64,000 bases of DNA from Branchiostoma floridae (taxonomy: Eukaryota > Chordata > Leptocardii > Amphioxiformes > Branchiostomatidae), in NCBI RefSeq assembly GCF_000003815.2, contig NC_049988.1:3635971-3699970 (forward strand). The letters are read 5' to 3'. The translations under genes were made by a program, and so were the position numbers. Below are positions 2,567 through 49,400 of the stretch, piece by piece (the stretch's first letter is position 1; each line of letters starts with the position of its first letter). The notes below the pieces were generated by a model. That model was not told where the DNA came from, did not search any database, and saw only the letters and a program-made list of their open reading frames with translations.

Positions 2567-2621
2567 ATGGAGCACCGTAGCAAGTGGACGTCGAGTCTAC
2601 TGTGCCTTGCTGCTATAATTG
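2567..2621 (+). CDS. Receptor exon 1: signal peptide
   Basis: It encodes Met, a charged stretch (EHRSKW) and a hydrophobic core (SSLLCLAAII), typical of a secretory signal. The donor is ATTG|GTGAGT with phase 1, so residue 19 is split with exon 2. Cleavage would fall around the exon 1/2 junction, just before the D8C domain. Confidence 0.8.
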
Positions 2622-5600
2622 GTGAGTTCATTTTGTTGTTGTTTACATGAAAGGGTGAAAGACGACTTATTTGATCTGTATTTCAGTCAGTAGAGTACAT
2701 TACAGTCGGTACGCCGTCATTTTGTGAAATTGTGATTGTCCTGCGACACAGTATGCCACGGGAGGTTATCTGTATCGATGAAACGCCACCAGGGTACCAT
2801 CATGACACAACAATGATTCAAATCATCATATTAAAAAATATTACTCAATTCGCTACTCTCGTTGAATATGAACTGGCTATAGACATCACAGGGAACGAAT
2901 TAGGGAAACTTTTTACCATGCGTAAAAAATTGAGATGAAATTGTTCATACTGTGTCCAGTGAAGGGAAAATTCTAGACCTAAAAAAGCCTGAATCCTAAC
3001 ACGAAAGGAAAAGACAAAAATAGTGCGTCGAGAAGGAGATCTTTAACCCCTTTGGCTGTGTTACGGTGTAATGACATTCATGTATTTGTATCTTCTTTGT
3101 TTCAGGTTCCATTTCAAAGGCCTTCAGTATTGACCCCTGTACTGACTACCGCGAGCTAAACCAAGTCAGGCGGAGTTCAGCAGCCGAGATACAGGCCGGG
3201 CACTCTCTCCTGTGCGACAACTCTTTAGCAAGAGACTGGTACCGGTTCATCAGTTATGTCGGCGGTGAGATCCCTACAACCTGTGTGGAGCCGTACCACT
3301 GTGGAACCCAGGTTCCTATATGGATGAACGGAACCCTACCGACAGACAGTACTGTAGTCAACAGAACGGTTTGTCCTAACTATGGTCAACCCGGGAACTG
3401 TTGTCCTTTCCCGTGGAACATCCAGGTCAAACGGTGTGTGGATACACGAGGCGTTTTCTACGTGTACGAGTTGGTGCCAACGACTAGCTGTTCTCAGGCC
3501 TACTGTGCAGGTGGGTCTGTTTGGCCATGTTTGAAATAAATTGTATCTTAGCTAGCACGTCCAATATGTATTTCTTCTTGCATTGCCTATGTTCCATAAT
3601 CATTTTAAGTGGGACCTTTACACCGTGCTCTGTACTGTTCAAAAGACTTTTGAGCGTAGTAAATGCTTTCCATATACCACATTTGCCGGGAAAGGGCTTA
3701 AAGTAATCATCATTCCACAGTCAAACGTAAAGTATCAGGCCTCAGTCTACTCATTCAACCACCGAGGTGGGTGTCTGACCAAGCCAGTTTACCAAGTATA
3801 TGAAACTACTCACTTTTTAGATGTATCGAAGACACATAAGGCCACCATTCCATTCGAAATGGTACAACGACCAAAATTGGATTTGTGAATAGCTTTGATT
3901 TCATAACTTAGATATTTCGTAATACGTAAAAGTATGACTTATAAGACAACAAAGTACACAAAACGTAAGAAGTGGAATGTGGTAATAAGGAATTGAATTA
4001 TATTTACAAATAATCATAACTCAGCGTCACCTAAACAAAAAAGGCAATGATAACGATGGATACCACCATACCCTCAGCTATTGTGTCACAGTATTGTGAG
4101 GCAGTTACATGTACTGTTCGAGTGCAGAACCCGACAGTCTGCTCAGTAGATGCCACAATCATAAGCCATATTTTAGACACTATCTTATTCAGTTGCGAGG
4201 AAGATATGCAAACAATTAAATTTCTGAAGGGGCTAGTTTGACTTGGCATTTTAACGCACGTCTTTGGTCGGTTTTCAAACTACTGAAAGTTTTGGATAGT
4301 ATCGTATTGATCATAACAATGTCGGTACTTTTGCTTCGTTTCTTCGTTTTTGTGAAAACCCGTATAGAAAAGTATTCGAATATTTAACCAGTATTATGCG
4401 AAACTGTCCCAGCCATTGTTAGACTATGGTAGACCGTCATATACACTCCCTGTGTATTTGTATGCATTTAGTAGTTAATTACAGGGGTAATTTTATGTCT
4501 TTTACTCTGGGTAACTTTACTTGAGGGTTAAAGGGATATTTTGTCCACAGGAATACTCCCCATATGTCCAGAGGGAGAGATATACGACCAATACAACGAT
4601 ATTTGTCTGGGTAAGTACATTTCGTTTGGTGAAAATATGTTAGATCGTAGTCCACAAATTCGCCAAAGTGTAGCATTAGTCTATCAACATATGCCAAAGC
4701 TTCTGAATGGACAAAATGATACTATTGTATTTAAATGTATGAAATAGAATGTTGTTTTACACTTCAAGTTGATTTTCATCATTCAAAAGAACCGTAGCTC
4801 CAGCTAAATGTTCAACAATTGCTAACTTGTGCGTATAACAACCGACTTGAAATAACAAAATGTAAAAGACGTAAGTTAGATACTATATAGATCTGCTTTC
4901 AAAACATTTATTTACATCACGGATTAGCTTTTGTCATTCCCCTTGCTCACAAAACATGTGTCCAAAAATTGACACTGTAAGAATATTACTTTCACGGTAA
5001 CCACATGTACAATGTCTGTATGGCGTACTCACATTCATTATTCTGACAATTTAGTAAGGCGCAACTCTAGTAAATGTGCGGGTTTTACAAAAGCTATCGT
5101 GAAATGGCAAGGGTCAAGTCCACTAAAATATAATAATAATAATAATGGTTTATTTGGTAGAAGCATTTCGCAGCCTTTCGGCTGAATTGTACACTCCTTT
5201 CACATGAGAATCCAAAACAGAGTCAAAAACTGACTTTGGAAGTACAATTAATAATACAATTGGGTAAAATGCTATACATGAAATTTACATCCTTAATATT
5301 AAAATACTACTAATTATGATTTACAGCAATAAAATAATCACACCGCTTAAATGCTTCCTAATCGCAAACATTTTACATTGGCTGTCGATACAATACATGA
5401 AAATTTAACTGATTTAAAAAAATTGATGGAATTTTCATTTACATATCAAAGGTTAGAAAACCCTAACACTAATCACACTAAATCCCGTAGCATACTGGAG
5501 ATATTGGAACAGAACTCATAACACGGCAAACAGCGAACTTGTATATATTTGCAATAGTTTGCACGGATACTGTACACTGCAGAGCCCTAGTATGTTTGTC

Positions 5601-8210
5601 GATAAGTTAATCAGTAACAAACACTATGGCCCACTTGACACCTCGAGATTGTGACTGGTGAATCGGCCCCAGGGAAATTGAAAAAGGCCTAAGGGTTTTC
5701 TACCATGCTAAGAACACGAGAAAACCCGGGATTCTTGTTACAGAACCTTAAAAAGCCACTTTAGGGCCCATAATTTGACTATTTCTTAATATTGGTGGAG
5801 TCATGTGGCGTAACTGCGGGGTCTTTTGCCCGGAAGCCAGAGTTTCTGGGTTCAAGTCCTGACATGCTACCGATCTTGTGCTACCGATCTTGTGCTACCG
5901 ATCTTGTGCTACCGATCGTGTGCTACCGATCTTGTGCTACCGATCTTGTGCTACCGATCTTGTGCTACCGATCTTGTGCTACCGATCTTGTGCTACCGAT
6001 CTTGTGCTACCGATCTTGTGCTACCGATCTTGTGCTACCGATCTTGTGCTACCGATCTTGTGCTACCGATCTTGTGCTACAGATCTTGTGCTACCGATCT
6101 TGAGCTACCGATCTTGTGCTACCGATCTTGTGCTACAGATCTTGTGCTACCGATCTTGTGCTACAGATCTTGTGCTACAGATCTTGTGCTACCGATCTTG
6201 TGCTACCGATCTTGTGCTACCGATCTTGTGCTACCAATCTTGTGCCTTCAAGTTGGGAAAGGCACCTCACTCCACACAGATGTGCAAAAGGGTACCTGAC
6301 TTCGGTTGGGAGGTAAAAGGAGTGGAAGGAAAATGATTCGATGGGCTCCGCCTTCTGATACTGTAGTCCTAGACAGAGTGCAACCACCCACTGTCACTAT
6401 ATGGCCCTAAACGTCTTTGGGATTATACCTTTGCCTGCCTACTTTTTGCAACATGTTTAATGATTTAGAATACATTCATCCCATCCCTTGTTGAGATTTG
6501 TTGCTCACGGCCACAGACACAAAGCACACACATGCTGACAGGCCCTAAAACATTGCCTTCTTCACGAAGGTAATTATTTACCAAATACCCAATTTAATTG
6601 CCCCTTTTCACTAGATGGCGATCTCGCTACGCTCTCACTGAGACCTAAAACGGATCTGTGTAACCCTCGATATTATACTGGGTATATAAATTTGAAAGGC
6701 CCTCTTTCCACTAGAAGGCGATCTCGCTGTGCTCTCACTGCGACCTAAATAGGATATGTAAAACCTTCGCTTTCACACAGGGTATATCATACAAAACATA
6801 AAAGTGTATCTGAGAAGACAACAAAACACACAAAGTGTAAAAAGATTCGTTTTTTTCCTATATAATTCGTTGAGCGATCTATCAAATTTCAGGTCGCAGA
6901 CAGAGCGCTGCGAGAGCGCCGTCTTAGTGGAAAGGTGCAACGTTATAGCAAACAAAGCAACCTGCCTTCGTTTTTTTACAGAAACCCGGCACCCTGTACC
7001 CTGTGACTTTGAGGCTATAGGAACGTGTGAGTGGCACCAACAGACAAATGACGAGTTTGACTGGGTGAAACAAACAGCTGGAGAAGTGAACAATCATCTT
7101 CCTGCAGGTGAAAAATATCAACTAAATTTTTACCTTGCGTTGTCCTTGTATTATTTAATTTGATAGTATTTTGAATGTTGTCCAAATTTTTATTCATATT
7201 GTCTCACACAAAATTTATGTAATGATTCATTCTCTGATAACGCATTTCTATGAAACAATATGAGGAGAGCGGAATTCGGCAATGATAAAGACTGAGCAAC
7301 AGTTATTCAGGCACCGACGAAAGGTAGCGGCTGGTATCTGAAACCGTTAATGACTGTTAATTTGGCTATATTAAACCCGGATCTCTAAACTCCATGGACG
7401 TTTAAAGTAAAACACAAGATGACCGAGATGTATAAAATTCTCCTGACACAAAGAAAGTCTCAGCGAAATAAATCTCTCCTGATATCGCAGTATTTTTGTA
7501 TAAATTGTTTGACCTGCTCAAGATTTTTTTTCAAAAATGTTTACTTGCCATGAAAGCTTTGGCTTTATTTTCCAGATGGAGGTCGTTTCCTGTATGTTGG
7601 TAGTGACGCCGGCCAGCAGCCATTGGATACAGCCAGAATCATCGGTCCTGTCATTGTGCCGTCTGTGGTTCGACCGTGTAATGTAAGCCGTTCAAATTGA
7701 TTAGAAATACACTCAACATACAAACTTGGTTCTACCTAAAAGTACCCTCTAATCCTATCAAGTCTTAGGACATTATCGGGACTAAAGAAAACACAAAGAA
7801 AGTTTGATAGTATGGTGCTATTGAATTGAATTTTTCAAAGTGTCTTCAATAGATTCTTATCGTTCAATCGTTCAGCGATTTATCAAATTTGAGGCCGCAG
7901 AGAGAGCGCGGCGAGATCGCCTTCCTAATGTAAATGGGGTATAACTGATTTGAATGTGTTTCTCACCAGATGACATTTAGTTACTACTTCTCTGGACCAG
8001 ACGCCGGAGACTTGGATGTGTTTACCCGTCAGTACTACACAGGAGTGGAGAGACCGGCATGGCAGGAGTCAGCGGGAACTACAGGGGTGTGGTCACAGGT
8101 CACTGTCTCATTTCAGGAGCAGGACCCATTTCAGGTTAGTTCCTTACATGGGGTGTCAACAGTGTAGAGTTAATTTTGTAGCAGTGATAGATTCATCACA
8201 ACGGAATTAT

Positions 8211-8243
<33 letters not shown>

Positions 8244-11200
8244 GAGAGAAAATACGAAACATTGAGCTATAAAAGATTTTCACAAACGTTGAAATTGTCG
8301 TGGTAATCGACCATAAGGACGGGAAATTTTGTTACAAAAATTAACAATGTTTGTAGCCTTTCTGAAGCTAAATCGCATTCGTTTTTCGAGGTTTGTTTGA
8401 TCATAGAGGTTCATTTTTCTGATCCTGGAGATATATTGATGTGTTTTTTTGTTTAATCTAGCCCAACTTTCTGACCCTTTCCATGTTTTGATTAGAATTT
8501 AACTGACTGGACTGACCCATTCGGGCAGGGTGTGAAATCCTGGTGTCATTTCGATCTTCTGCCTGTAACTTGTTGAACCGCCTGAGTTGACCTTCCACTT
8601 TTCAACCAAAACAAATACTGTAAATGCATTTAAGTTCGCGGGGATTTAATTTCACGGTAACAGGAAAAGGGACTTTTTGTGGTGGTTTTAAGTTCGCGGT
8701 GGCACTGTGGAAAAATGTTCGTGGTGGTTTTAAGTTCGCGTTGAAGTGTCCACTGCGAAACGCACGAACATTAAACCACTGCGTAAGTTCCTGCATTTAG
8801 TATGGCAAGCCCAGCTTTACAGTGGTGGTAAACACGTGGGGTATCGAAATGTATCTTAGCGTGAAGGGATTTGAATTGATTGTTTCTGCATGAGCACCAT
8901 AAATGGAAAGTCTATTTGATGACCCTCCACTTAACTTCCGATTTTCATTTCCTTTGAACTGCAGGTAATTATTCAGGGTGTAATCGGATACGGTCGAGAT
9001 GCTAGGATTGCTATTGACGATATCTCCTTCTCATGGGACTGTGTACGAGAAGGTAAGAATTCATTTTGGAAGGTAATAGACTATAGATTTGGCCCAAGAC
9101 CGTGGTGTTGTAACATTTAGAAACCGATCTTATCATCGCTACATTGCAACAGATCGATGAAGTGCTGTCCGATATTACCGACTATAGATGAAGTTTGTTT
9201 ATTTGTCTTTAATAGTTGACGGAAGTGTCCGCCTAGTTGACGGTTCCAGGTTTGACGAAGGCCGTGTGGAGATCTACTACAACCACCGCTGGGGAACCAT
9301 CTGTAACATCGGCTGGACACAGACTAGCGCTGATGTGGTGTGTGCTCAACTGGGGTACAGGGCGTCTGTCTGGACAGATTCTAGGTAAGAACATGGTGAC
9401 GATAGAAAAAAAATTGATAAAACACTCTGGCTGGTCTGTACTGAGACCATATTGATCAAATCAACATGGCTAATGTCAATTGAAGCAATGCTCTTCTGAG
9501 ATTCTTAGTAGCATTTTGTTTTCCTCCATTAATTAAGGTATCCTGCGCCTGATTCAACACCCATCCTACTAGATGACGTCACTTGCGACACCAGGAACAA
9601 GTCTAGAATCTCGGAATGTCGCACGAAGCCGTGGGAAAACTGGAGTCCACTTTGCAACCATGCCAAAGATGTGTCTGTCAGATGTGTAGGTGGGTACAGA
9701 TTTCTTTTTCCTTTTCATATGCGAGAAATATTTTACATGTCACGCCAAACTACATATAGCTGGCAAGTGCAATTAGATATCTCGTTCTCAGTAAAAACAG
9801 AAGTAAGTTTAGGTTCTTATAATAAATTAGCTCATTTGTTTTGGAAGCTTCCTCTATTACCTATGGCCAAAAATTGTCAAACATCCGTAATCGACTTGGA
9901 CTGTGCCTCTACGTCTTGGTAGGTTTGCAATCACTACTGACACCACACCGAACTGTACATTCTTCTGGTTTATTCTCGGAGTCTCTCTTCAGCTATCTTC
10001 TCAGTCTGGAAGGGTCTAACCTTCTGCCAGGCTCTTCTACTCGGCATGCGTGTCACCATGTTAACATGTTAGTCTCTGCTGCTTGCTTAACACCACATGT
10101 TACATCCCCTTTTCTTAAAGCAAGATGTCATTTCAGATCTTATGCGATCATCATTATTTTTCTTTAACGCATTAGTTATGTATTACATGGCAGGCGTAAC
10201 AAACGTTCAAACAGCTACATGTATCTGTTAAGAAAAGAGGTATACTCTTTAAAATAATGATATTTACAGTTTTCTTAAGATAATATAGTTATAATTTATG
10301 GGCAGCCATTTCACTCCATGTTCAGGTTTGGTAATTTTTTATAAACTCTTGACATATCGGTTATGTATACGCCTTTTATTACTCGTAAATTGTGCAACCG
10401 TGATATATTTTGCATGTCTAGGTCAGTGGCATCAATGCAGACCAGACCAGTTTGTATGTGACAACGCTGTCTGTCTGCCTCAAACTGCCCAGTGTGACTT
10501 CACAGACGACTGTGGGGATCGGAGTGATGAAAGTGATTGTGGTAAGGCCACCTTTCCACCAGACAACCTAAATAGAATATGTGTAAATGCTGATGTCATT
10601 CTGGGTACATCATGCAGCATGTAAAAGTATAACTGAGAGGACAGCAAAGCACACAAAGTTTTAAAAAAGTCGTTTCTTTTCTACACAATTCGTTGAGCGT
10701 TCTAAGTGTCAAATTCTAGGTTCAGAGAGCGCGCGGTGAGAGCGTCTTCCTAGTAAAGGGGGTATAAGTGGTTTCCTTTCTGATTAATCAAAATCTATCA
10801 ACTACTTAATCATAGTCCTTTCAGTTCGGGGAAGTGACATTAGTGTTTAGATTTTTGCAGTTAATATAAAATCACCTCTCCAAATTTCCTGAACAGGAAG
10901 CTACCCAGGTAGATGTAACTTCCAGAACGGCTTGTGTAACTGGGTCCAACTGAAAACTGACAGTACTGACTGGACAAGAGGATTCGGCGGGTCTGAAGTA
11001 GGGGCTCCTTTGGTTGACCACGAGGGTCAAACAGGTTAGTGGCATCCCCTGCCGTCTTGTAACGTTAGTTCACCTTTATCCGTAGGGTAACCTATATTCA
11101 TTGCATATAAAAATAGGGTACTTGGGGATCGTTAAGTCGATGGAAGGTAGTTTCACATTGTCATATCTTGAAAGTTTTAATATTTGAAACCCACGTCGTT

Positions 11201-14200
11201 GACCGGAAATCTCTAAATACCCAGTTTTTTAAAAAAAACAACGAATCTAGGTTACCCCACGAATAACGGTGAATTAGCGTTACAGCACAAGCGTTTTGAA
11301 TGTACCATGGATAGAGATGATTTGTCTGAATTGTGCGAAACCTCATAGAAATGAATAAGACTCAATTGAGCCATCACACTATTGACAATATGCATTTTTA
11401 CATCGGCATTTTTTTAAATTCACAGACGGATATTTCCTGTACCTAACTGGCGCCAAGGAAGCAAATGCCAACTTACTACTTCCTACATACTTCATTTCCA
11501 GTGGTAATAATTGTTCAGTAAGTGTGCTTGTTCTTCTTTCTGGCCATTATCTGAATTTAGTTTATGGCAGACGTGTTGGATTTGGATATTATATATGACT
11601 GGTTTATTTCGAAATTCAAAACACTGACATTGGCATGGCAGCCTCATCTCACGACTGAATTGCAAAGTGTCATAACAAACCGTTAACATCATGATATCAA
11701 AGTGGTTAGAATTGAAGATTATAAATCATTGCAAAGACACAGATCTTAAGAATCGTTGCAGACAGACAAATTAAAATAGTATTGGGATAAAACATTTAAA
11801 CTATATTTACTTAGCACAGTAATATCAGTGTATCACTATGTCGGAGAAATATCTAAAATACATAATGCCTTACTACTCGTATTTGATACAAAACAGCAGC
11901 ACACAGGAGATATAGTAACACTGTCACATGCAGAGGAATTATCAGTCTGAGAATGATCAATTTGAGTCTTATTTATTAGATTTTAGCAAATGGTTGTTGG
12001 AAATTTTAATCCGAAATTTTGGTCAATTCTTTTAGTGGTGAGGTCATAACATTATTGAATGCCACTCCTCTAACGTATATATATCTTGTGTCTCCTCCTA
12101 ATAGCTTTTGTTTCACTACTACATGAACGTCGGTGACGCAAGCCTTTCTGTTCGTGTCGCATCAAGGACGGTGGCGAGGCTAGAATGGCAGCAAAGTGTT
12201 TCACAAGGTCCGACCTGGCTCAAACAAGAGGTGCCAATCACGGACAGAACGCCGTTCCAGGTTTGTGTTTCATTCATATTGTTACCAGTTACAGTTTAGT
12301 GTTAGCTTTTAGACTAGAGTAGATATGTATATTCCATACTGTTCTACACTGTTTGTACACTTTCGTGTTGATTTCAATTAGCCCAATTAGACAAGACTTT
12401 GCAATAAACTATCATTAATAATACGCCGATAATTAAACTTTTCTATTTGATATAATCTTAGATAATGTTTGCATCTAATACCAACATTAACGCTTTGTAT
12501 AGCTTCAATATTTCAGCCTTGGATCAATTGATTGTGTCAATTTTATGTACCCTTTACACCTCGATCATTTTGTTCTAGGTCTCCTTCACAGGGTCTATTG
12601 TGATACCGTCTGAGGGGTCGATAGCGATAGATGACATAACGTTAACACCTGGCTGTATCATTGGTAAGGCTTTTTTGTGTTGTCCATGTGTTTGTGTTTA
12701 TACTGTAACACGACTATTGCCAACATAGTTAATAATTGAGTTCTGCAGCATGAAATACTATTCAAACCAAGTAAAGCGTTTAGAAACATACACATGCAAT
12801 GGAAAGGTCTTGACAATGCTATTCATTTTTTGTAATGTATGATCACTTTGGTTTCTTTATTTTAACCTCTGACCTCTGCTTATCATTTTACGCTAAATTA
12901 TCTGCATTTGTTGTTAAGCTGTTTTTCATTTCATGTATTTCATTTTAATCTTATTATGTATGTATGACACCAGGAAGAGTAGTGTCATGATAATGTACAC
13001 TAATGGAGATCGTAATAAAACAAACAAACAAACAATGGTATCTTTTTCGGTACCTCTTTTCTTTTACAGATAATGACGGTTGTACAGCGACATCGTCCAC
13101 CTTTAAATGCGGCAGTGGTGAATGCATTTCATTGGACTATGTATGTGATTATCAAGATAACTGCGTGGATGGAAGCGACGAATCGGACTGCGATAAAGGT
13201 ATTTCAGCTTTACATTGGCATATCAAGAAGGCATGTAAGTGATGGATCTATGATCACCACATTGTCAAAAAATACTTATTTTTTTACGTATTAAGGTATT
13301 TAGGTTGGCTAAATTGGCATTTTGACCTTTATTAGTTAGTTTTATTGCAGTGGTATGTACCAATGTACTGTATTTTGTCATAGAAAAAAATAATATTAGG
13401 GGCAATAAAACCTGACGACGTCATCAATATGGCCCAAAAAATCAGATTTATAATTCCTTTATATTAGAATCATTATTCGTTACGGTTCCATTCTTTCTTA
13501 ATTCATTAATGAGAAAACAATGGAAGGTTAAAATGCCAATTTAGCCAGGTGAAATACCTTAACATTAAATTCACAGGACCAAGACGATGTGATTTCGAAG
13601 AAGACTTGTGTTCCTGGTCAGCTGGTTCAGGTGACATCGGATTCCAACGGGGCAGAGAAACAACAAGTACCAGTGGCACTGGGCCACCGGTGGACCACAC
13701 TCATCAAAATCCACTAGGTACTACCAGTAGCGACTGTGTCAATGTACTTTTAAATGAAACGATCATTTACGAACATTATTTCTTCCGTGCAAAATAAGTG
13801 TGCTTTCTATGTTGAAATGTACTTTCAATGTTCAATATGTCAAGGTACCTAAAAGCATTTTTCAATGTTCCATATTTCAAAGAAACTAGCATGTAAACAA
13901 TATCGATCTTCGATATTCGATACCCCTATTTTCCCCACAGGCTTCTACATATTCATCGACTCGTCAGGCAGCAGTGAAGGGCAGAAAGCTCAACTCGTCA
14001 GTCCCGTCTTTTCGGTTGGCACTCCATGTCAGGTACTGGTGTTAAACAATTACATTTTTGTATCTATATATTTGAGCGTACACTTCGTGCCAACAGCAGA
14101 AGATGCGGGATTGAACGAGCTTTCCTGATCTTTTCTCCTTTACGAACAATGCTAGTGTCCTCCTTTTATATTTTTTTTTACTTTTTGTCCCGTCCAGTTT

Positions 14201-17200
14201 CGATTTTTCTACCACATGCAAGGCCGCAGCATCGGCAGTCTGCATGTTCTGGTAAGGGATGTGAAGAACGGATCAACAGAAGAAGTGTGGAGACGACAGG
14301 GCCAACAGGGGAGGGGCTGGCTGTTTGGTTCGGTCAGCATTGGCACTAACAACAGGAACTATCAGGTACTAAAAAGATAACTAAGGAAACTTTGACAACG
14401 TGAAGTTCACTCACAGATCTTACATTTAAATTTCTTGTGGATAAGTGTACTAAGAAAATTATGACGTTCAATATGATATTTGATGTTTTGATCAAACAAA
14501 GCAAATACGAGTCGTCTGAACATTTTGTAAAATGTCAAGACCCTACGACATAGTATAAAGATCAGAGCAATGCTTGACATGTTCATGACATGTTCATTCT
14601 CCTCATAACCCATGCATATGGTTGGGGTTAACCAAACCATAATCGTACTCCTTATGTAGGTTATTCTAGAAGCCGTGGTGGGAAAGGGAGGCCAGGGTGA
14701 CATAGCTGTGGACGATGTGTCTTTCGCCACATATTGTACGCTGCTCACAGAAGGTACATATATCTCATTTTACAACCTTTTGTAATTTACTTTGTCCTGA
14801 CAATCCCCTAGCTTGTAAGTACTAGATACGTGATATTAGAAAAAAAATACAATTTTATCGATTTATCTATCTGCTTGCCATTGACCACCAGATGGGTTGT
14901 CCTCCACATCAGTCGCAATCATCGCTGTGTCCAGCGTGGCAGTAGTGCTGATAGGCATCGGTCTGTCTGTCTTTATTGTCTATTGGAGACGTGAGAAGAT
15001 AAAGAGAAGGAGGTGAGCTATATCAAGTTAAGTGACCAAAAACTGTACATTCTCAAACCTATTCATATCTTACAGTTTATAACAAATTTGCAGGACACTT
15101 CTTCTTGAAGAGTGAAATCGTTGTATATGTATAACACGCCAGTTACTGTTTTATGGCCATTTTGATTCGATTATATTAAAGCCATCTTCTTGGAACCACA
15201 TCAAAGTTCAGCAAAGTTGCCTTTATCATGAAATCTAAGATATCAGGAAGGTTGAACGAGTGAATAAACACACAGAGCATATACCGAATAATAGACAGTG
15301 TACCGAAATTTGTAGTATACATGTATATCTATCTATTGTAATCATAAAGATGTACAGTATGGTCGAATACATTAAATTCTTATTATTAAATTATAAGATA
15401 ATAAAAACAAGAAATTGTCTTGATATTATCTTGCCCAGATACCGCAACAACAACCAGAATACCGGCCTCCAACTTGGACGTCAGCCAGATCGACCAGAAC
15501 TTGGAGATGGGAACCTCAGAACCTACGAAGACCTAAGAGGAAGTACTACAAGTAAGATACGCAGCAGTGGATAAAAAGGCGAAGAAGGACTAAAAACATA
15601 CATATAACTTTTCTATTTGAAATTTAAAAAAAAAGCTGTATCGGGTCCATTGAAATACCAGCTTCGACCTATCATTGTATTCTCGTTAGGCCTACGTCAC
15701 ATTTCCTACCCGGGGCGCGGTCGGGCTGTTTGAGGAAACAAAAAATTAAATTTCATGCCAATAAATATGCACAAGGCATGCTGTTGACTTATTTTTGGTC
15801 CGTTTTGTGTTTTTGTTGTCTTTCATATCGTACTTTTCGTTCCCCAAAACTGCCCGGCCGGGCCCCTTTGTGGAAATGTTACGTTAGCCTTACTAGTGTC
15901 ATCATAAATCACTTACATTGTTGCAATATGCGACAACCATGTGTAATTTGACATCAAGTAACCTACATTTTGCATCGAGATAATGAGGCAATGTTAACTT
16001 AGAACTTATGAAATTTGAAACGTAAAACTCATTTGATTTTATTCTCGATAAAACCATGCTTAATGATCATGACCTCGATCCATGACAAAATTAACATGAA
16101 CTGAATTATAATACTTGATAAGCAAATACTTTCGGTAGCGCATATTTGCAAGTTATAAAATGTTTAATTGGGTTGGGCAATATGTCGCTAAACAAATCGC
16201 AGAAGCAACGGAAAATAATTTCTTGCTTCTGAAGCGGCTAGGAATGATGACAATCAACATGCGATATTCATGTTTCAAAGAATTACTATTAATGTCTTTT
16301 GTGTTTTCTTTTCCAGACAATTATCAGTCCTTAATTGGTGCAAGACGTGTTGAAAACGGGTCTGTTACAAAGGCAAGACAGGTAATTTATTAGAGAATTA
16401 GTTTACATCAGACGAAACTGAGTACCAAGTTTTCATTGCAACTGGAGCCCACAAGTTTGAGAATCGCCACACCTCGAGTATGGTAAAGAACCCACCACAC
16501 TTATCGAAATAAGTATGGATCTTTCTTGATGTAAGCGGATCAAAGCTAACAGTCCGGTCTTTCATAGCTTGTACCTATTATAAACAATTGGTGTGTTCCA
16601 CCTGTGCTACTGTAACTTGGCAAATATGTCCCGTTCTCATACCGACAGATTGAACCTGACGGAGCATACGCCATTCCTGCATACGCGTCATCTAAAGATC
16701 GGTTCTCAGTGGACAGCAGCAGCCAGGCATCACTGGTGAACAACACCGTCGGTATGGCAACGACTGGGAATTCCAACGTGGCATGCGAGAATGAAAATAA
16801 CTACACAGTGTTAGTTGGTAAGCCTTTGATCGAGAAATTAGGCCATGTTGATTTGATTACATGGATGACATCAGCCCGCGCATCAATTTTCTGTTGTTTC
16901 CGAGGAAAAGTTTTCAACCATACTGTAAATAGAACGAAGCGGCTGCAAAATGGTCAAACATACGCCAAAGATTGAGAATAAAAAAGTATTGGAAAACGTA
17001 TACTAATGTCATAGAATGCCAACTTCATTTCCGCCGCTGCAGTTCCAAAACAACACTCTGACGTCAAAAGCTGTCACTTAGAAATGTCATTTAAGAATGA
17101 AGACTATGGACAAAAGACTTAAACGACAGATTCTCTAAAACATTATGCTAAGTTACTCCTATGTATCATACGTTGTATTTCTGTGTACTTTTTGTCGAAG

Positions 17201-18280
17201 CTACCTGCTATAAAACCGTAAAGAAAGCCTTCGTTGCCTGCCTAACTACCCATAGTCCATTAATCCCATTTCCTTCGTAATGCTGTTTCAAAAATTTAAA
17301 AAAAAAAATACACCCCTGATGTTTCAAGACAAGCTGCAAGGGCCCAAAAGTCTTTGAAAACGTATACCGAAGTCACAGAATGCCAACGTCAATTTGGGGT
17401 TCCTAGAGGAAGACTTCCATATATATAATCAAATCAACATGGCCTTATTTGTAAAAAAAAACGCATCCCGGACAAGTCAAACAGTCACTGGAAAGGAATC
17501 CGTTTTATGCTTTCTAGTTTATTGGTGTTTGGTCGAAGCAATATCAAGCGGGGTATAAATTTGTAACCTTGTTACCGTGTCATGGAGGGTCGCTGTAGTG
17601 TGGAACTTATTTATTCAGACAATGTTTATCATATTCACACGATCGACACATTCGATGACTAATAAATGATGTTAAAATATCAAATACATTTGAACTTATG
17701 TTATCTTGAATATCCTTCATTCCATATTGTTCTGAAAGGTTTACCTCTCTATTTCTCGCTTTCAGATGACAGACTTTGGAACTTCCTGAAGATAAACGGC
17801 TTCGATGACTACATCAATATCATGGCAGAAAATCGGTTCACGTATGAACGTCTTCAGTCATGTAAAGAGGTAGACCTGGTAAACATCGGCATACCTCTTG
17901 CTAAAGCACATGCTATTCTGTCAGCTTTCCGTGAAGATGGGACCTACGAGTACACTAGGTCTAATGAAGTTATTCCCAGCAAGTATATCTGCCCGATAAG
18001 CAACAGTGTAATGAAAGACCCAGTGCGTGCAAGCGATGGTTGCATTTATGACAGGGTAGCCATAACTGCTTGGTATGAAAGGAACGGCTGTACACCAAAC
18101 CTGAAGGCTCATAGACTAGACCTTGAACCAGTAGACGATCTACGTGAAGAGATTGACGAATTTCGCAAAAGGCGTCAGAAACGGGCGAATAAAGAGCTTC
18201 CTGGTCATGATGTAAGACCGGACTCTGCTCAGTCAAATTCATCCAGGTCTGCCACTCCTATGGCAGATGTGGAATGCTAA
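2567..18280 (+). CDS. Multi-module transmembrane receptor with SAM and U-box E3 ligase tail
   Basis: The hand-built model has 24 exons: 2567-2621, 3106-3510, 4551-4610, 6982-7107, 7576-7682, 7970-8134, 8965-9052, 9216-9384, 9538-9689, 10422-10541, 10897-11034, 11426-11517, 12105-12260, 12579-12663, 13070-13198, 13577-13717, 13941-14032, 14198-14365, 14660-14753, 14892-15012, 15439-15551, 16317-16381, 16649-16817, 17766-18280. The total is 3525 nt, giving 1174 residues plus stop; every intron is GT..AG and all phases agree. Domain order: signal peptide (1-19), D8C (19-153), linker (154-173), MAM (174-335), SRCR (336-442), LDLa (443-482), MAM (483-639), LDLa (640-682), MAM (683-847), transmembrane helix (about 855-879), tyrosine-rich tail (880-1003), SAM (1004-1062), U-box (about 1073-1143). 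Inferred role: cell-surface recognition receptor that signals and ubiquitinates through its own tail. I know no named gene with this architecture. Confidence 0.88.
3106..3510 (+). CDS. Receptor exon 2: D8C (uromodulin/GP2-type) domain
   Basis: One phase 1-1 exon encodes about 135 residues with the full D8C signature: DPC..Y..L near the start, LLCDNSL, DWYRF, TTCVEPYHCGT, PIWMNGTLP, a CC pair, a V.RC...FYVYEL stretch and a C...YC end. Ten cysteines are present. D8C domains are known from uromodulin, GP2 and OIT3/LZP, where they lie in the extracellular part. In GP2 and uromodulin this part of the molecule binds bacterial adhesins through glycans. A binding role here is inferred only. Confidence 0.85.
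4551..4610 (+). CDS. Receptor exon 3: 20-residue two-cysteine linker
   Basis: This tiny phase 1-1 exon encodes GILPICPEGEIYDQYNDICL and carries two cysteines. It keeps the frame between the D8C and first MAM exons and has good splice sites (TTGTCCACAG| and |GTAAGT). I do not recognise a domain; it could be a one-disulphide linker or the remnant of an EGF-like repeat. As a 60-nt phase-symmetric exon it could be skipped without a frameshift. Confidence 0.65.
5820..6420 (+). mobile_element. Degenerate tRNA-derived SINE containing a 14-bp minisatellite
   Basis: The head has a tRNA-like B box (GGGTTCAAGTCC, 5848-5859). It is followed by GCTACCGATCTTGTG, the same phrase that follows the tRNA head in the SINE at 46491. 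The tail after 6245 (AAAGGCACCTC, GGTACCTGACTTCGGTTGGG) matches the complement of the SINE at 51640-51885. The copy lies in receptor intron 3. Confidence 0.65.
5865..6245. repeat. Minisatellite, 14-bp unit, about 27 copies
   Basis: The unit is CTACCGATCTTGTG, almost perfectly repeated with a few variant units (ACAGAT, GAGCTA, CCAATC). Because 14 is not a multiple of three, all three frames stay open and produce spurious repetitive reading frames. It has grown from the internal CCGATCTTGTGC word of the enclosing SINE. Confidence 0.95.
6700..6936. mobile_element. MITE-like element, family C, complete copy
   Basis: Terminal inverted repeats of about 40 bp: left CTTTCCACTAGAAGGCGATC..., right GCGAGAGCGCCGTCTTAGTG followed by GAAAGG. 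The interior carries GACAACAAAACACACAAAG and AATTCGTTGAGCGATC. A solo left arm (CCCCTTTTCACTAGATGGCG, about 6600-6660) precedes it. Non-coding. The element sits just upstream of receptor exon 4. Confidence 0.7.
6982..9052 (+). CDS. Receptor exons 4-7: MAM domain 1
   Basis: Four exons (6982-7107, 7576-7682, 7970-8134, 8965-9052) encode residues 174-335. Hallmarks seen are PCDFEAIGTCEWHQQTNDEFDW at the start (CDFE...C.W), GRFLYV, an LxxFxY-like strand (MTFSYYFSG), and RIAIDDISFSWDC at the end. Internal intron phases are 1-0-0-1, identical to the two later MAM modules. MAM domains mediate adhesion and dimerisation on cell surfaces. Intron 6 contains a GA microsatellite and a foldback MITE. Confidence 0.88.
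7780..7940. mobile_element. MITE-like element, family C, degenerate copy
   Basis: The right half is recognisable: ACACAAAGAAAG, TTCAGCGATTTATCAAATTT, GAGGCCGCAGAGAGAGCGCG. The left end is not identified with certainty. It lies between receptor exons 5 and 6. Confidence 0.5.
8213..8251. repeat. (GA)n microsatellite
   Basis: A run of GA dinucleotides with AAAGAGAGAAAG variants, in receptor intron 6. Confidence 0.95.
8616..8802 (+). mobile_element. Foldback MITE, family A copy 1
   Basis: It begins TACTGTAAATGCATTTAAGT and ends with CTGCATTTAGTA. The whole is built from TTCGCGG/CCGCGAA-type words on alternating strands (here some decayed). It is in receptor intron 6. The same family is at 25781, 34910, 39087, 42959 and 45737. 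Confidence 0.7.
9216..9689 (+). CDS. Receptor exons 8-9: SRCR domain, group A
   Basis: Two exons (9216-9384, 9538-9689; phase 2 between them) encode residues 336-442. Seen: VRLVDGS, GRVEIYYNHRWGTIC, a DVVCAQLGY core, ILLDDVTC, SECRTKPW and VSVRCV. There are six cysteines and the domain is split over two exons, which are the defining traits of group A SRCR domains; group B has eight cysteines and one exon. SRCR domains occur in scavenger receptors and bind polyanions, bacteria or proteins. The ligand here is unknown. Confidence 0.9.
10422..10541 (+). CDS. Receptor exon 10: LDL receptor class A repeat 1
   Basis: A single phase 1-1 exon (residues 443-482) has the six-cysteine LDLa pattern C-x6-C-x4-C-x6-C-x5-C-x8-C and the calcium-binding acidic end CGDRSDESDC. 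A family C MITE copy begins only about 7 bp after the donor site. Confidence 0.92.
10549..10765. mobile_element. MITE-like element, family C, copy in receptor intron 10
   Basis: Left end CCACCTTTCCACCAGACAACC; interior GGACAGCAAAGCACACAAAG and ACAATTCGTTGAGCG; right end GCGCGGTGAGAGCGTCTTCC then TAGTAAAGGG. It starts only about 7 bp after the exon 10 donor. Confidence 0.65.
10897..12663 (+). CDS. Receptor exons 11-14: MAM domain 2
   Basis: Exons 10897-11034, 11426-11517, 12105-12260 and 12579-12663 encode residues 483-639. Seen: RCNFQNGLCNWVQ at the start, GYFLYLTG, FHYYMNVGDASLSVRV, the conserved Pro-Thr-W segment before PITDRTPFQ, and SIAIDDITLTPGC at the end. Phase pattern is 1-0-0-1. Intron 11 holds family D element copy 2 (11060-11282). 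Confidence 0.9.
11060..11282. mobile_element. MITE-like element, family D copy 2
   Basis: It starts TAACGTTAGTTCACCTTTAT and ends GGTGAATTAGCGTTA, an imperfect inverted repeat. It shares interior words with the copy at 1067-1268. It starts about 26 bp after the exon 11 donor. Confidence 0.65.
13070..13198 (+). CDS. Receptor exon 15: LDL receptor class A repeat 2
   Basis: A phase 1-1 exon (residues 640-682) with six cysteines, FKCGSGECISLDYVCDY and the calcium-cage end CVDGSDESDC. It separates MAM domains 2 and 3 in the way repeat 1 separates the SRCR and MAM 2. Confidence 0.92.
13577..14753 (+). CDS. Receptor exons 16-19: MAM domain 3
   Basis: Exons 13577-13717, 13941-14032, 14198-14365 and 14660-14753 encode residues 683-847. 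Seen: RCDFEEDLCSWSAG, GFYIFIDSS, QAQLVSPVF-like strand, FRFFYHMQGRSIGSLHVLV, VWRRQGQQG.GW and GDIAVDDVSFATYC at the membrane-proximal end. Phases are again 1-0-0-1. It is the last extracellular module; only about seven residues separate it from the transmembrane helix. Confidence 0.9.
14892..15012 (+). CDS. Receptor exon 20: transmembrane helix and stop-transfer
   Basis: Residues about 855-879 are uninterrupted hydrophobic (VAIIAVSSVAVVLIGIGLSV, then FIVYW), followed by RREKIKRRR, a basic cytoplasmic anchor. This makes the protein type I with the SAM and U-box in the cytosol. Phase 1 in, phase 2 out. Confidence 0.9.
15439..16817 (+). CDS. Receptor exons 21-23: cytoplasmic tail with tyrosine motifs
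   Basis: Exons 15439-15551, 16317-16381 and 16649-16817 encode residues 888-1003, a polar and presumably flexible tail. It carries three YxxL motifs: Y917-EDL, Y928-QSL and Y999-TVL, plus YAIP at 954. The first two have the ITAM spacing (YxxL, seven residues, YxxL) and are encoded by neighbouring exons; acidic residues precede the first. In vertebrate immune receptors such a pair, once phosphorylated, recruits tandem-SH2 kinases of the Syk family. That this tail does so is inferred. Exon 22 is only 65 nt but has clean splice sites. Confidence 0.75.
17766..18280 (+). CDS. Receptor exon 24: SAM and U-box domains, stop codon
   Basis: One 515-nt exon encodes 171 residues. SAM: DRLWNFLKINGFDDYINIM, then a DLVNIGI core and a C-terminal helix with KAHAILSAF. 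U-box: CPIS (1079-1082), MKDPV (1086-1090), SDGCIYDR (1093-1100), W1106, P1114 and a closing helix LREEIDEF. U-boxes are zinc-free RING-like folds that recruit an E2, so this is a predicted E3 ligase; the E2-facing Cys-Pro-Ile and the loop Pro are kept. The same SAM-then-U-box order is known in WDSUB1. The ends after the U-box are basic (RKRRQKR) and then Ser-rich. Confidence 0.88.
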
Positions 18281-18621: not shown

Positions 18622-18800
18622 CTAAAATATTTGATGCAGTCAATGTGTTCTGTGTTGGGAAAACATCTATTGTACGTACGTATGTAATGCGCAGGTAGCA
18701 GGCTAGGAATTATTGTGCGTACTGGGTACTTACGTTCTATGTGTTCTACATATTTGTGTGTACGGGATAATCCATTTCTGTGTGAAAATAAACCCATGTT
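18281..18800 (+). other. 3' UTR of the receptor with (AT)n and polyadenylation signal
   Basis: After the stop codon the sequence is non-coding and AT-rich. It contains an (AT)n microsatellite at about 18577-18617 and AATAAA at 18787-18792, the first canonical polyadenylation signal downstream. The UTR would be about 0.5 kb. Confidence 0.55.
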
Positions 18801-27877: not shown

Positions 27878-28399
27878 ATGGCCAGTCTGGACAGGGTTTG
27901 GACCAGCAGCAAGATCTCTGCGCAGACAAAGATAAGGCTCTACAACAGCCTCGTGCTGTCCATCCTTCTCTACGGGGCAGAGACTTGGACTCTCACTGCT
28001 GCCCAGGAGCGTCGACTCGACGCCTTTGATACTAAGTGCCAAAGAAGAATCCTGGGGATCAGGTGGCATGACTATGTATCCAATGCCACCCTGCGCGAGA
28101 CCACCAGTCAACCCCAACTGTCCAGTAAGGTGCGCCAGGCCCGTCTACGACTGTTTGGTCACATTGCCAGGACGGAGCCACCTCTGGAAACAGCTGCCCT
28201 TCTGAGGGAGCCGACCCCACCCAACTGGTCCCGCCCCAGGGGCCGTCCCAGGCATACCTGGCAAGAACAACTGAAGGACGACCTGAGGGCTGCCGGCCTC
28301 GACCTTACCACCGCCTGGGTGCTGGCCCTCAACAGACCTATGTGGAGATCTGTGTGTGCAGGCGCTACGCTCCATACCGGAGCATGCGGACCTGAGTGA
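27878..28399 (+). pseudogene. 5'-truncated LINE reverse-transcriptase C-terminus
   Basis: A 173-codon frame has the C-terminal signature of non-LTR retrotransposon ORF2 proteins: KIRLYNSLVLSILLYGAETW, ERRLDAFDTKCQRRILGIRW, RQARLRLFGHIAR and RPRGRPRHTWQEQLKDDL. The polymerase and endonuclease domains upstream are missing, as in 5'-truncated insertions. A (TGAG)n tail follows at 28395-28413, which marks the 3' end. GC content and codon use are much higher than in the surroundings. It is not a host gene. Confidence 0.85.
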
Positions 28400-46400: not shown

Positions 46401-49400
46401 TGGTGCAAATGTAGACTGTGGGGAACCTCTTTGTTGCAGGGCCAACAGCCCGGCAGGCAGTAAGTCCATTATATTATTTGTCCATTATTTGTGAGACCGC
46501 GTAGCGCAGCGGCAGCGTGTTCGGCCCATGACTGAGAGGTCGCGGGTTCAAATCCGGTTGCTGTGTTACCGATCTTGTGCCCTTAGGAAAGGCACTTTAC
46601 ACGATTTCCTCACCTTACTCAGGTGAAAATGAGTACCTAGCTTCGGCTAGGGCCGTCCCTCGGATAGGACGTTAAATGGAGGTCCCGTGTCTGGGGAGAG
46701 CCATACCCCATGCACGTTAAAGAACCTGCCACACGTGCGATGCTGCAGTGTGAGTGGTTCAAAACCTACAGTACCTTGGCCGCACCTGGGGCAATTACTG
46801 TCGTACTGAGGTCACCTGAGTGGCGCCGAATGGCAGCTTGCTCCAGACCCTTGTGATTTAGCCCCGCCTATTGTAAGCTCCTCGCAATTCAGCCCCTGGC
46901 TGGAAAGAATGAGTAGTAGGCCCACCCAATAATTAGATGATTTATATTATCATAAATAGCCAGTGAAGGTGAGTGAGCCAGTAGGGATGGGTACCGGTAG
47001 AGATAATTCAGGCACAGGTATGGCTCAGGTCCAGCGGATCAGGTCTAGGTCCAGACATGAACCTGGACTGAATTATCTGTGAAAACTTGTGAATTGGGAG
47101 TACTAAAAACAATAGTCCATTTCGCTACAAAGGATTCTGTTTGGTGGAGTATCTGATGTCCATTGGCATTTCAAAATCCTATCCAAGTCATGTAAACAAC
47201 ACCAACTGTAGAAGCACTCTCAAAGTCAGGACACAATCAAAGCACTCTTGTATATTCAATGTAAAAATCTAATGTGTGTTGTTTCTTATTCTTTACTCCT
47301 ATATTATGCAGGTTTTAGTGTTTATTGACAAAGTTTTGAATGTGTTGTGTTGTTTAGAGGGAGGTCCCAAACCTGCGGGGAAGTGGGGAGACTACAGGTA
47401 CTGTGACACACCACTGTGGACAATGGAAAACCTGCTACAACACCTGGCACAGAAACAGGTAGGACTTGACACAATATACAGAAACATCAGCAGCTGTGTA
47501 AACAGTGTAGCTGTTAGCATGAGAAAGTTGGCTTAACTGTCTCTGTGTTCTCGTAACTATAATGCTTGTGTAGATGGGGAAAAAATTTGGAACTAGAAAA
47601 AAGTGATCGTCTTGAACAGTCGTCTTGTGGACATGGCTGTTGGACCAAATTTTAACTGTATGACATACATTTTATGGTGTCAGGAGGACAATCTGTACAA
47701 AAAAAAACTTGCTGTTTCTGTGGGTTCATTCCAACATGTTGGCATTGTTCTATACCAGTTATAATTAGCATATCATCATTATATAATGTTAAGCCCTATT
47801 TCACAATTCAAGGAATAGAACACACACACACACAAAAGGTCCATCCCTGGCCAAATGTTAGTAGCTGCTGCATTTTTTAGGTTAAATTACTCCAATTAGA
47901 ATATGTATCACCCCCCTCCCCAATTATGGGTAGGTCTGACACAAATCTGTAGACTGAAAGGTAAAATGTAAAAACTCAAATTTGTATTTCCCATACAGTC
48001 ACAGTTCGACTATGCCATCTGGGCAGGCGACATCCCAGCACACGACGTTTGGAACCAGTCGCGTACAGACCAGTTACACGTCCTGAACACCGTGTCAGAC
48101 ATGATGTTAAAGTATCTGAAAATCCCAATCTACCCTGCCCTAGGTAACCATGAGAGCTCACCGGTCGACAGGTGAGTTGTTTCAATGTTTTTTAACGCTC
48201 GTTGGGCACCTCTGTATTCCTGTACGCTTGTAAGTCCTGGTCTCTGACAGCAAAACTGGAGAAAAGAGAAGAAATACTTCCATACAGAATAAAGTGAGTA
48301 AAATATTGGTCCATTCGAAGACCTTCTAATGGTACGGCCAAGTGTCACAGTCATCAGGACTAGCTAGAATTATAAAGCAAGAAACCATACAAGTCAACAT
48401 ACTTTTAATGCATTGATGAATAAAATGTAACAAGACTAGGAAGTCAAGGACTTTCTTCAACTGTTAGTGCCGAAATGTTGAGCATTTGGAGTTTTATTTT
48501 TGTTGCCAGCGTATATATTACACATGTCATTCAATTTGGTTCCTTAATCATAGTCAAACAGTAGTTATTTCATACTTGTTTCAAAACCCAGAAGCTTTCC
48601 ATGTTTGCTGAACTCTCAGAATGACAGTGTGCAAAGTGGTTTAGCATGTGTGTTTTTTCTGGAGCAGAGACATTTTTGCTATTACAATGTGTTATCTTAA
48701 TTTGCTGTTGTTATTGGATGGGCCATTTACTTGTCTTACTTTTGTAGTATTCTGATAAATAAAATAATTTTTTCCTCCCAGTTTCCCACCTCCATTCATC
48801 ACTGGTAAAGACTCCATCTCCTGGCTGTACGATGCCCTGGCTGAAACATGGACACATTGGACACCTGTCAGTACCAAGAGAAACATTGAAAGGTATGTCT
48901 TTGCTAGTGTAAACCTTGTTCATGTAGTAGGAACCTTGAGTGTACTACAAGTGTGTCTTAGTGTGTGTACATGTGCATGTACATTTGTGTGTAATACATG
49001 CATATGTAACTATGTGCATGTGTGTGTGTCCTTGTTAATGAATGAATGAATGAAGACCTTTATTGTACATACATACCCACTTGATTCAGTACAGGTCGTA
49101 ACAAAAGATACATGAACTATATACAATGAATCTACAATCCTATTCTACTGTGTGAATTCGAATTCTTCTTGTTTCTTTGTGATATTGAAAACGTATGCAC
49201 AGATATGCTTAAAGGTTTGTCTAAATTCATAAGGAATATGAATTTGTCTATATTACTTAGTTGTATGAAGTGGGGGAACATGGGTTCTATCAGTCTATAA
49301 AGTTAATGTTCATGACTTTATATTCTCTTATCCCATCACAGAGGTGCTTTTTACTCGATACTAATTCGACCCGGGCTTCGGCTGATCTCCATCAACACTA

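Follow-up and report, generated by a model that had tools for sequence, protein, structure and literature searches.

The 64,000-nucleotide stretch of Branchiostoma floridae DNA analyzed here (the window; C10:3635971-3699970, C10 being contig NC_049988.1) carries a gene whose predicted product joins a scavenger-receptor ectodomain, a transmembrane (TM) helix, and a cytosolic tail with a U-box, the fold of one class of ubiquitin (E3) ligases. We propose that it is a single-pass, clustering scavenger-type receptor whose tail combines a phosphotyrosine motif with SAM and a catalytic U-box and ubiquitinates the receptor itself or a partner, a reading that we hold to be evenly poised between right and wrong; that the protein itself is real we consider very probable. 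The gene lies on the plus strand from a start codon at 2567 to a stop codon at 18278-18280, and its model was rebuilt by hand from the sequence. The 24 exons make up 3525 nucleotides and encode 1174 residues plus a stop in a single frame with no internal stops, with AG at 23 of 23 acceptors and GT at 23 of 23 donors (46/46 sites), which reproduces exactly the continuous 24-exon model of the first-pass annotation of this DNA. The protein reads, in order, signal-like N terminus, D8C, MAM, SRCR, LDLa, MAM, LDLa, MAM, TM, linker, SAM, and U-box, distributed as follows.

2567..2621, plus strand: exon 1, start codon and signal-like peptide, which runs on into exon 2
3106..3510, plus strand: exon 2, D8C (uromodulin-like) domain (PF23283, 55 bits)
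4551..4610, plus strand: exon 3, short linker with a cysteine
6982..9052, plus strand: exons 4-7 (6982-7107, 7576-7682, 7970-8134, 8965-9052), MAM 1 (Pfam)
9216..9689, plus strand: exons 8-9 (9216-9384, 9538-9689), SRCR (Pfam, 79.9 bits)
10422..10541, plus strand: exon 10, LDLa 1 (Pfam)
10897..12663, plus strand: exons 11-14 (10897-11034, 11426-11517, 12105-12260, 12579-12663), MAM 2 (Pfam)
13070..13198, plus strand: exon 15, LDLa 2 (Pfam)
13577..14753, plus strand: exons 16-19 (13577-13717, 13941-14032, 14198-14365, 14660-14753), MAM 3 (Pfam)
14892..15012, plus strand: exon 20, TM helix, then a basic stretch (hydropathy)
15439..16817, plus strand: exons 21-23 (15439-15551, 16317-16381, 16649-16817), cytosolic linker
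15524..16333, plus strand: tyrosine pair YEDL-x7-YQSL, residues 917-931, divided between exons 21 and 22, resembling an immunoreceptor tyrosine-based activation motif (ITAM) and kept in the paralog
17766..17935, plus strand: exon 24, first part, SAM domain (profile, sister homology, predicted fold)
17972..18178, plus strand: exon 24, U-box, residues 1073-1141 (Pfam; dN/dS 0.10)
18179..18280, plus strand: exon 24, C-terminal tail and stop
18787..18792, plus strand: AATAAA, possible polyadenylation signal

Searched with Pfam, the whole window protein matched MAM (319 bits over three stretches), SRCR (79.9 bits), LDLa (62.1 bits over two stretches), and D8C_UMOD (55.0 bits), while the prokaryotic library NCBIfam gave no family in it. 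Hydropathy reaches its maximum of 2.62 within residues 857-876 and is followed by the basic run RREKIKRRR, and this TM segment together with the SRCR score gives the combination by which a scavenger receptor is recognized, an SRCR ectodomain on a TM protein. The order D8C, MAM, SRCR, LDLa, TM, SAM, U-box had been claimed earlier from the letters; Pfam and hydropathy bear it out for all elements other than SAM, which falls below threshold by sequence score and is favored by its predicted fold. Amphioxus SRCR domains are described, in the accessible portion of one report, as pairing with more diverse domains than elsewhere (PMC2575513). In the portion available of another, the lancelet SRCR genes show high domain recombination and an evolutionary pattern likened to that of lancelet TLRs, and the word “ubiquitin” is absent (PMC4284660).

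Evidence for the joins came from a second locus. In a DNA search of the genome (513 Mb, 431 contigs), exon 24 had one other copy, at C10:250879-251393, 89% identical across all 515 bases, and this copy belongs to a paralog of the window gene, 3.4 Mb away on C10, that matches it in all 24 exons, their order, and the frame. Projection of the 24 exons onto the paralog by alignment gave AG or GT at 46 of 46 sites and a single frame encoding 1164 residues, and the proteins of the two loci agree at 1028 of 1163 aligned positions (88% identical). The ratio of nonsynonymous to synonymous divergence (dN/dS) between them was 0.23 overall, 0.10 in the U-box, 0.36 in the linker, 0.39 in SAM, 0.44 in the C-terminal tail, and 0.61 in the TM exon, and by Fisher tests constraint was significant for the U-box (p 2.8e-6) and linker (p 0.005) and marginal for SAM (p 0.046). 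Conservation in the paralog serves here as a stand-in for transcript support of the gene model. A haplotype duplicate was considered and ruled out, as both copies lie on one contig at the distance given, with a synonymous divergence (dS) of 0.26 and differing flanks: beside the paralog is a third D8C gene, and beside the window gene is cytochrome c, identified by eye from two open frames downstream of the receptor (window ~21143-20148, minus strand).

Related receptors were found in the same genome. A protein search with exon 24 reached six places, namely the two copies, a U-box at C9:20.99M, the WD40-SAM-U-box ligase WDSUB1 at C9:12.53M, and two SAM-only exons on C10. The gene at C9:20.99M (the C9 receptor), a diverged relative, has 16 exons with boundaries set by eye (AG at 16 of 16 acceptors; 14 GT and one GC among 15 internal donors) and encodes the end of a MAM domain, SRCR, LDLa, MAM, LDLa, MAM, a stalk, a TM helix, a YxxL pair, and a U-box. 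More pieces of MAM 1 lie upstream, unjoined to the model, whose 5' end and signal peptide were not found. Its U-box (Pfam, 64 bits) has CPF as loop 1 and keeps a longer loop 2, and in place of a full SAM domain there is a short stretch that aligns to the SAM end. Searched against the genome, the C9 tail gave no fourth U-box receptor, its matches being itself, WDSUB1, the two C10 copies, and one place at E 0.98.

The SAM-only exons, at C10:1.31-1.33M and C10:12.30M, are preceded by D8C exons of 77% and 59% identity. These sisters resemble the window gene in having D8C, MAM pieces and a TM exon between D8C and SAM, and a homologous last exon whose starting phase matches that of exon 24; unlike the window gene, they stop soon after SAM and a short tail, and none of the genome's 13 U-box stretches lies at their loci. 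Exon linkage in them was judged from strand, distance (at most 18 kb), and intermediate exons, not from full assembly. A linker search of the genome reached six places, five in the window gene and its paralog and one in the C10:1.32M sister. With SAM as the final domain of these two D8C sisters, the U-box behaves like a last-exon module that can be removed. D8C-like stretches as such are numerous, with 84 across the whole genome at E of 0.01 or less and several of them clustered (e.g., on C2, C4, C5, C9, C10, C17, and C235), a large repertoire. The third receptor, adjoining the paralog (C10:247514-241859, minus strand), has D8C, MAM, SRCR, LDLa, and a TM-like frame, and its tail was not found there. 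Its SRCR exon 8 (C10:244451-244278) encodes the same protein sequence (100% identity) as exon 8 of the window gene (9216-9384) and is 97.1% identical to it in DNA across 175 bases, and its exons 9 and 10 are 83% and 79% alike to the window's, a pattern suggestive of gene conversion or an exchange of exons.

The U-box scored 41.6 bits in the whole window protein (cut-off, 21.4) and 45.3 when exon 24 was searched by itself. A profile built from the four U-boxes of the window gene, its paralog, the C9 receptor, and WDSUB1 matched solved U-box ligases: LubX at 1.2e-20, plant PUB12 at 4.3e-18, CHIP at 4e-11, and E4B at 7.5e-9. All four have the same residue in 19 columns, among them the CP of loop 1, the W of the central helix, and the P of loop 2. 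At the putative E2-contact positions of the CHIP and E4B work (loop-1 hydrophobic, central helix, loop-2 Pro), the window U-box has CPI, W, and P, but its loop 2 is shortened by two or three residues. Across the genome there are 13 U-box stretches, three of them in TM receptors; the ten that remain, judged by eye, are presumably WDSUB1 (one), UBE4 (one), UBOX5 (one), PRPF19 (one), and CHIP (six, in two copies), the six CHIP stretches on C13 being assigned from two recognized N-terminal ones and the rest by place. The WDSUB1 U-box is 42% identical to that of the window gene over 48 residues and 46% identical to that of the C9 receptor, and a nine-row tree placed the receptor U-boxes with WDSUB1 at 93/92 and together at 81/74. 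Several rows of that tree are short or long-branched and its sole firmly supported group is the window-paralog pair, so the kinship of the receptor U-boxes to WDSUB1 is only a lead. The simplest story of origin would be one capture of a WDSUB1-like SAM-U-box, or of a U-box, by a MAM/SRCR receptor, with later losses of U-box or SAM; alternatively, receptors may have gained U-boxes separately.

For the SAM domain the case is built from several partial matches. Pfam gave no SAM match in the whole window protein at E of 0.01 or less, and exon 24 alone reached 16.0 bits for SAM_1, below the cut-off of 23. The homologous exon of one sister, 33% identical to the window's, passed for SAM_2 (23.4 versus a cut-off of 20.5), and that of the other missed at 18.4. 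A four-row profile searched against PDB at E of 1 or less gave seven matches, led by the SAM domain of ANKS4B (0.0057), RBM20 (0.012), and the SAM domain of Sans (0.019), followed by tankyrase and SHANK chains; RBM20 is not known to be a SAM protein. A single-sequence AlphaFold2 model of exon 24 has five helices (residues 2-10, 14-22, 27-30, 35-39, and 45-57), with block means of the confidence score pLDDT at 69-85 across the first 60 residues and a poor remainder. Compared with PDB by Foldseek, it matched the Sans SAM best (E 9.3e-3; TM-score by target, 0.69), with the ANKS4B SAM as the other best match. Among the best 50 of 201 matches the first 36 were all SAM entries, the single-domain SAM chains among them having TM-scores by target of 0.60-0.83, and four of the others were RadA. 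None of the 201 fell below E 0.001, which probably reflects the low confidence of two thirds of the model. The predicted fold of the exon 24 start is SAM. The matched Sans and ANKS4B entries are tails of SAM plus a PDZ ligand bound to harmonin, and the C termini of the window gene and its relatives (VEC, VDC, VDI, VHV, and ISV) resemble class II PDZ ligands.

The preferred reading joins these parts in one chain of events. The D8C, MAM, SRCR, and LDLa modules would bind a multivalent ligand and cluster the receptor; SAM-SAM contacts and tyrosine phosphorylation would bring the tails together; and the clustered U-boxes would take up E2-ubiquitin and modify either the receptor or a neighboring membrane or adaptor protein with ubiquitin, leading to endocytosis or to a signal switched off, in effect a receptor with a built-in Cbl-like ligase. 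The architecture, its conservation in the paralog, and selection on the U-box are shown by the sequence; the steps of receptor clustering, tail assembly, and ubiquitination we infer. A precedent exists in WDSUB1, the nearest U-box relative, which acts on a membrane protein: it increases USH2A ubiquitination with WHRN as the scaffold, according to the part of the report at hand (PMC10238197). The product may be an active, ligand-regulated ligase and, as the first-pass annotation had it, a one-protein recognition-to-ubiquitination pathway. Several observations weigh against so full a role. Between window and paralog, the TM exon (p 0.52) and C-terminal tail (p 0.12) are without significant constraint; the two sister receptors without a U-box imply that the family's basic function needs none; and loop 2 of the window and paralog U-boxes lacks two residues relative to the C9 receptor and three relative to WDSUB1, with the conserved PN after it replaced by PV, so that E2 activation could be weak. 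The single-sequence fold prediction of the U-box is also poor (mean pLDDT, 56.6).

Were exons 1-20 and exon 24 drawn from different genes, the architecture would be an artefact of a model made from the window's letters, with a 948-base intron 23 and a separate SAM/U-box gene (WDSUB1) elsewhere in the genome giving room for such an error. An artefactual join across exons 20-24 is unlikely, though, because the join and frame are kept at a second, independent locus with the same exon chain and conserved splice sites; the C9 receptor also links TM to U-box, the SAM-ended sisters carry their last exon in the same phase behind the TM exon, and the first downstream gene seen runs on the minus strand. 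The doubt raised with the first model, that exon 24 might belong to another gene, is largely removed by the paralog, the C9 receptor, and the sisters, and we regard the artefact as very improbable. If the architecture is real, the U-box could be a non-catalytic scaffold, its fold kept for an E2-like or chaperone partner or for tail assembly. The shortened loop 2, the lost PN pair, and the sisters that manage without a U-box would fit this, and the strong purifying selection on the U-box, the retained CPI, W, and P, and the longer loop 2 of the C9 receptor (with CPF in its loop 1) speak against it; we think a scaffold unlikely.

A third possibility starts from the tyrosine pair, which fits the ITAM spacing Yxx[LI]-x6-8-Yxx[LI] in the predicted cytosolic tail: the main output would be kinase recruitment, SAM and U-box would only set receptor lifetime, and the ligase would be a brake. 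YxxL pairs occur in the tails of window, paralog, and C9 receptor and are rare in shuffles (119/20000 for the window linker, 429/20000 for the whole window tail, 198/20000 for the C9 tail), figures that are uncorrected for the ten patterns scanned, of which ITAM was one. A second match in the window tail (residues 1019-1033) was set aside, as it lies inside the SAM fold. An amphioxus LRR receptor that is tyrosine phosphorylated and bears an inhibitory counterpart, ITIM, acts with Lck, according to the available part of PMC8211107. Against a signaling receptor of this kind stand the scan of ten patterns, the C10:1.32M sister, which in the stretch read is without the pair and has TYENT at the place of the first motif, and a literature search for an amphioxus SRCR receptor with an ITAM, which gave none; we rate it as quite doubtful. 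A broader version of the ligase reading, put forward tentatively, is a cephalochordate class of receptor-ligases that would unite pattern recognition, phosphotyrosine signaling, and a WDSUB1-derived U-box in one membrane protein, with gain or loss of the U-box in the last exon converting a SAM receptor between signaling and self-ubiquitinating forms. A duplicated receptor that has a U-box of its own and is kept under selection would point to the capture of a WDSUB1-like module by a cell-surface receptor, and it would offer a compact system for asking how ligand clustering switches on a ligase.

To our knowledge, U-box proteins are typically cytosolic. WDSUB1 likewise has SAM directly before its U-box, and it is the nearest U-box outside the receptors in the tree; unlike the window protein it has WD40 repeats where the latter has an ectodomain and TM helix. 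The genome's copy shows WD40-like and SAM frames, with SAM and U-box in separate frames more than 1 kb apart. Neither WD40 nor PA nor RING-H2 is among the six Pfam families of the window protein at E of 0.01 or less, and the protein is not assigned to WDSUB1. In the available text of PMC4021871, PA-TM-RING and other transmembrane RING ligases (GRAIL/RNF128, RNF13, and RNF167) similarly combine a signal peptide (in most), an ectodomain, a TM helix, and an E3 in one chain; they differ in a zinc RING as E3 and a PA ectodomain, and no SAM or tyrosine pair is mentioned there. The window protein would work like a transmembrane E3 receptor and is not a PA-TM-RING or WDSUB1 member.

The earlier claim that no described protein has this order stands in part. 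No description of a transmembrane U-box receptor appeared in the titles, abstract starts, and passages of the literature matches listed, and the SRCR-combination table of PMC2575513 may list SRCR with U-box. The membrane-anchored ligases in the accessible parts of PMC4971459 and PMC4021871 are RING types, both papers being focused on RING by design. Marin's 2010 survey, in the text available, recognizes seven main animal U-box genes, including WDSUB1 as WD40-SAM-U-box, and reports a few sequences joining SAM and U-box in which no WD40 was found; the word “transmembrane” is absent from that text (PMC3087547). What tells against the claim is a cnidarian survey, the available text of which names MAM, fibronectin, UBOX, and SRCRs among the domains of DMBT-like predicted proteins; these SRCR/CUB/MAM proteins are, unlike ours, CUB based, with no SAM mentioned, and are compared here by text that is without detail on order, TM, or sharing of one protein (PMC5119243). 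The combination of SRCR/MAM with U-box therefore seems not wholly unheard of.

Other features of the window are minor. A weak tRNA match at 46495-46566, barely above the gathering score and not called by ARAGORN, is possibly a tRNA-derived repeat. An open reading frame with DUF6451 at 27878-28396 resembles, by eye, the end of a non-LTR (long terminal repeat) retrotransposon. Within intron 3 of the receptor gene, 5865-6245 is occupied by 27 copies of the 14-base tandem repeat TGCTACCGATCTTG.

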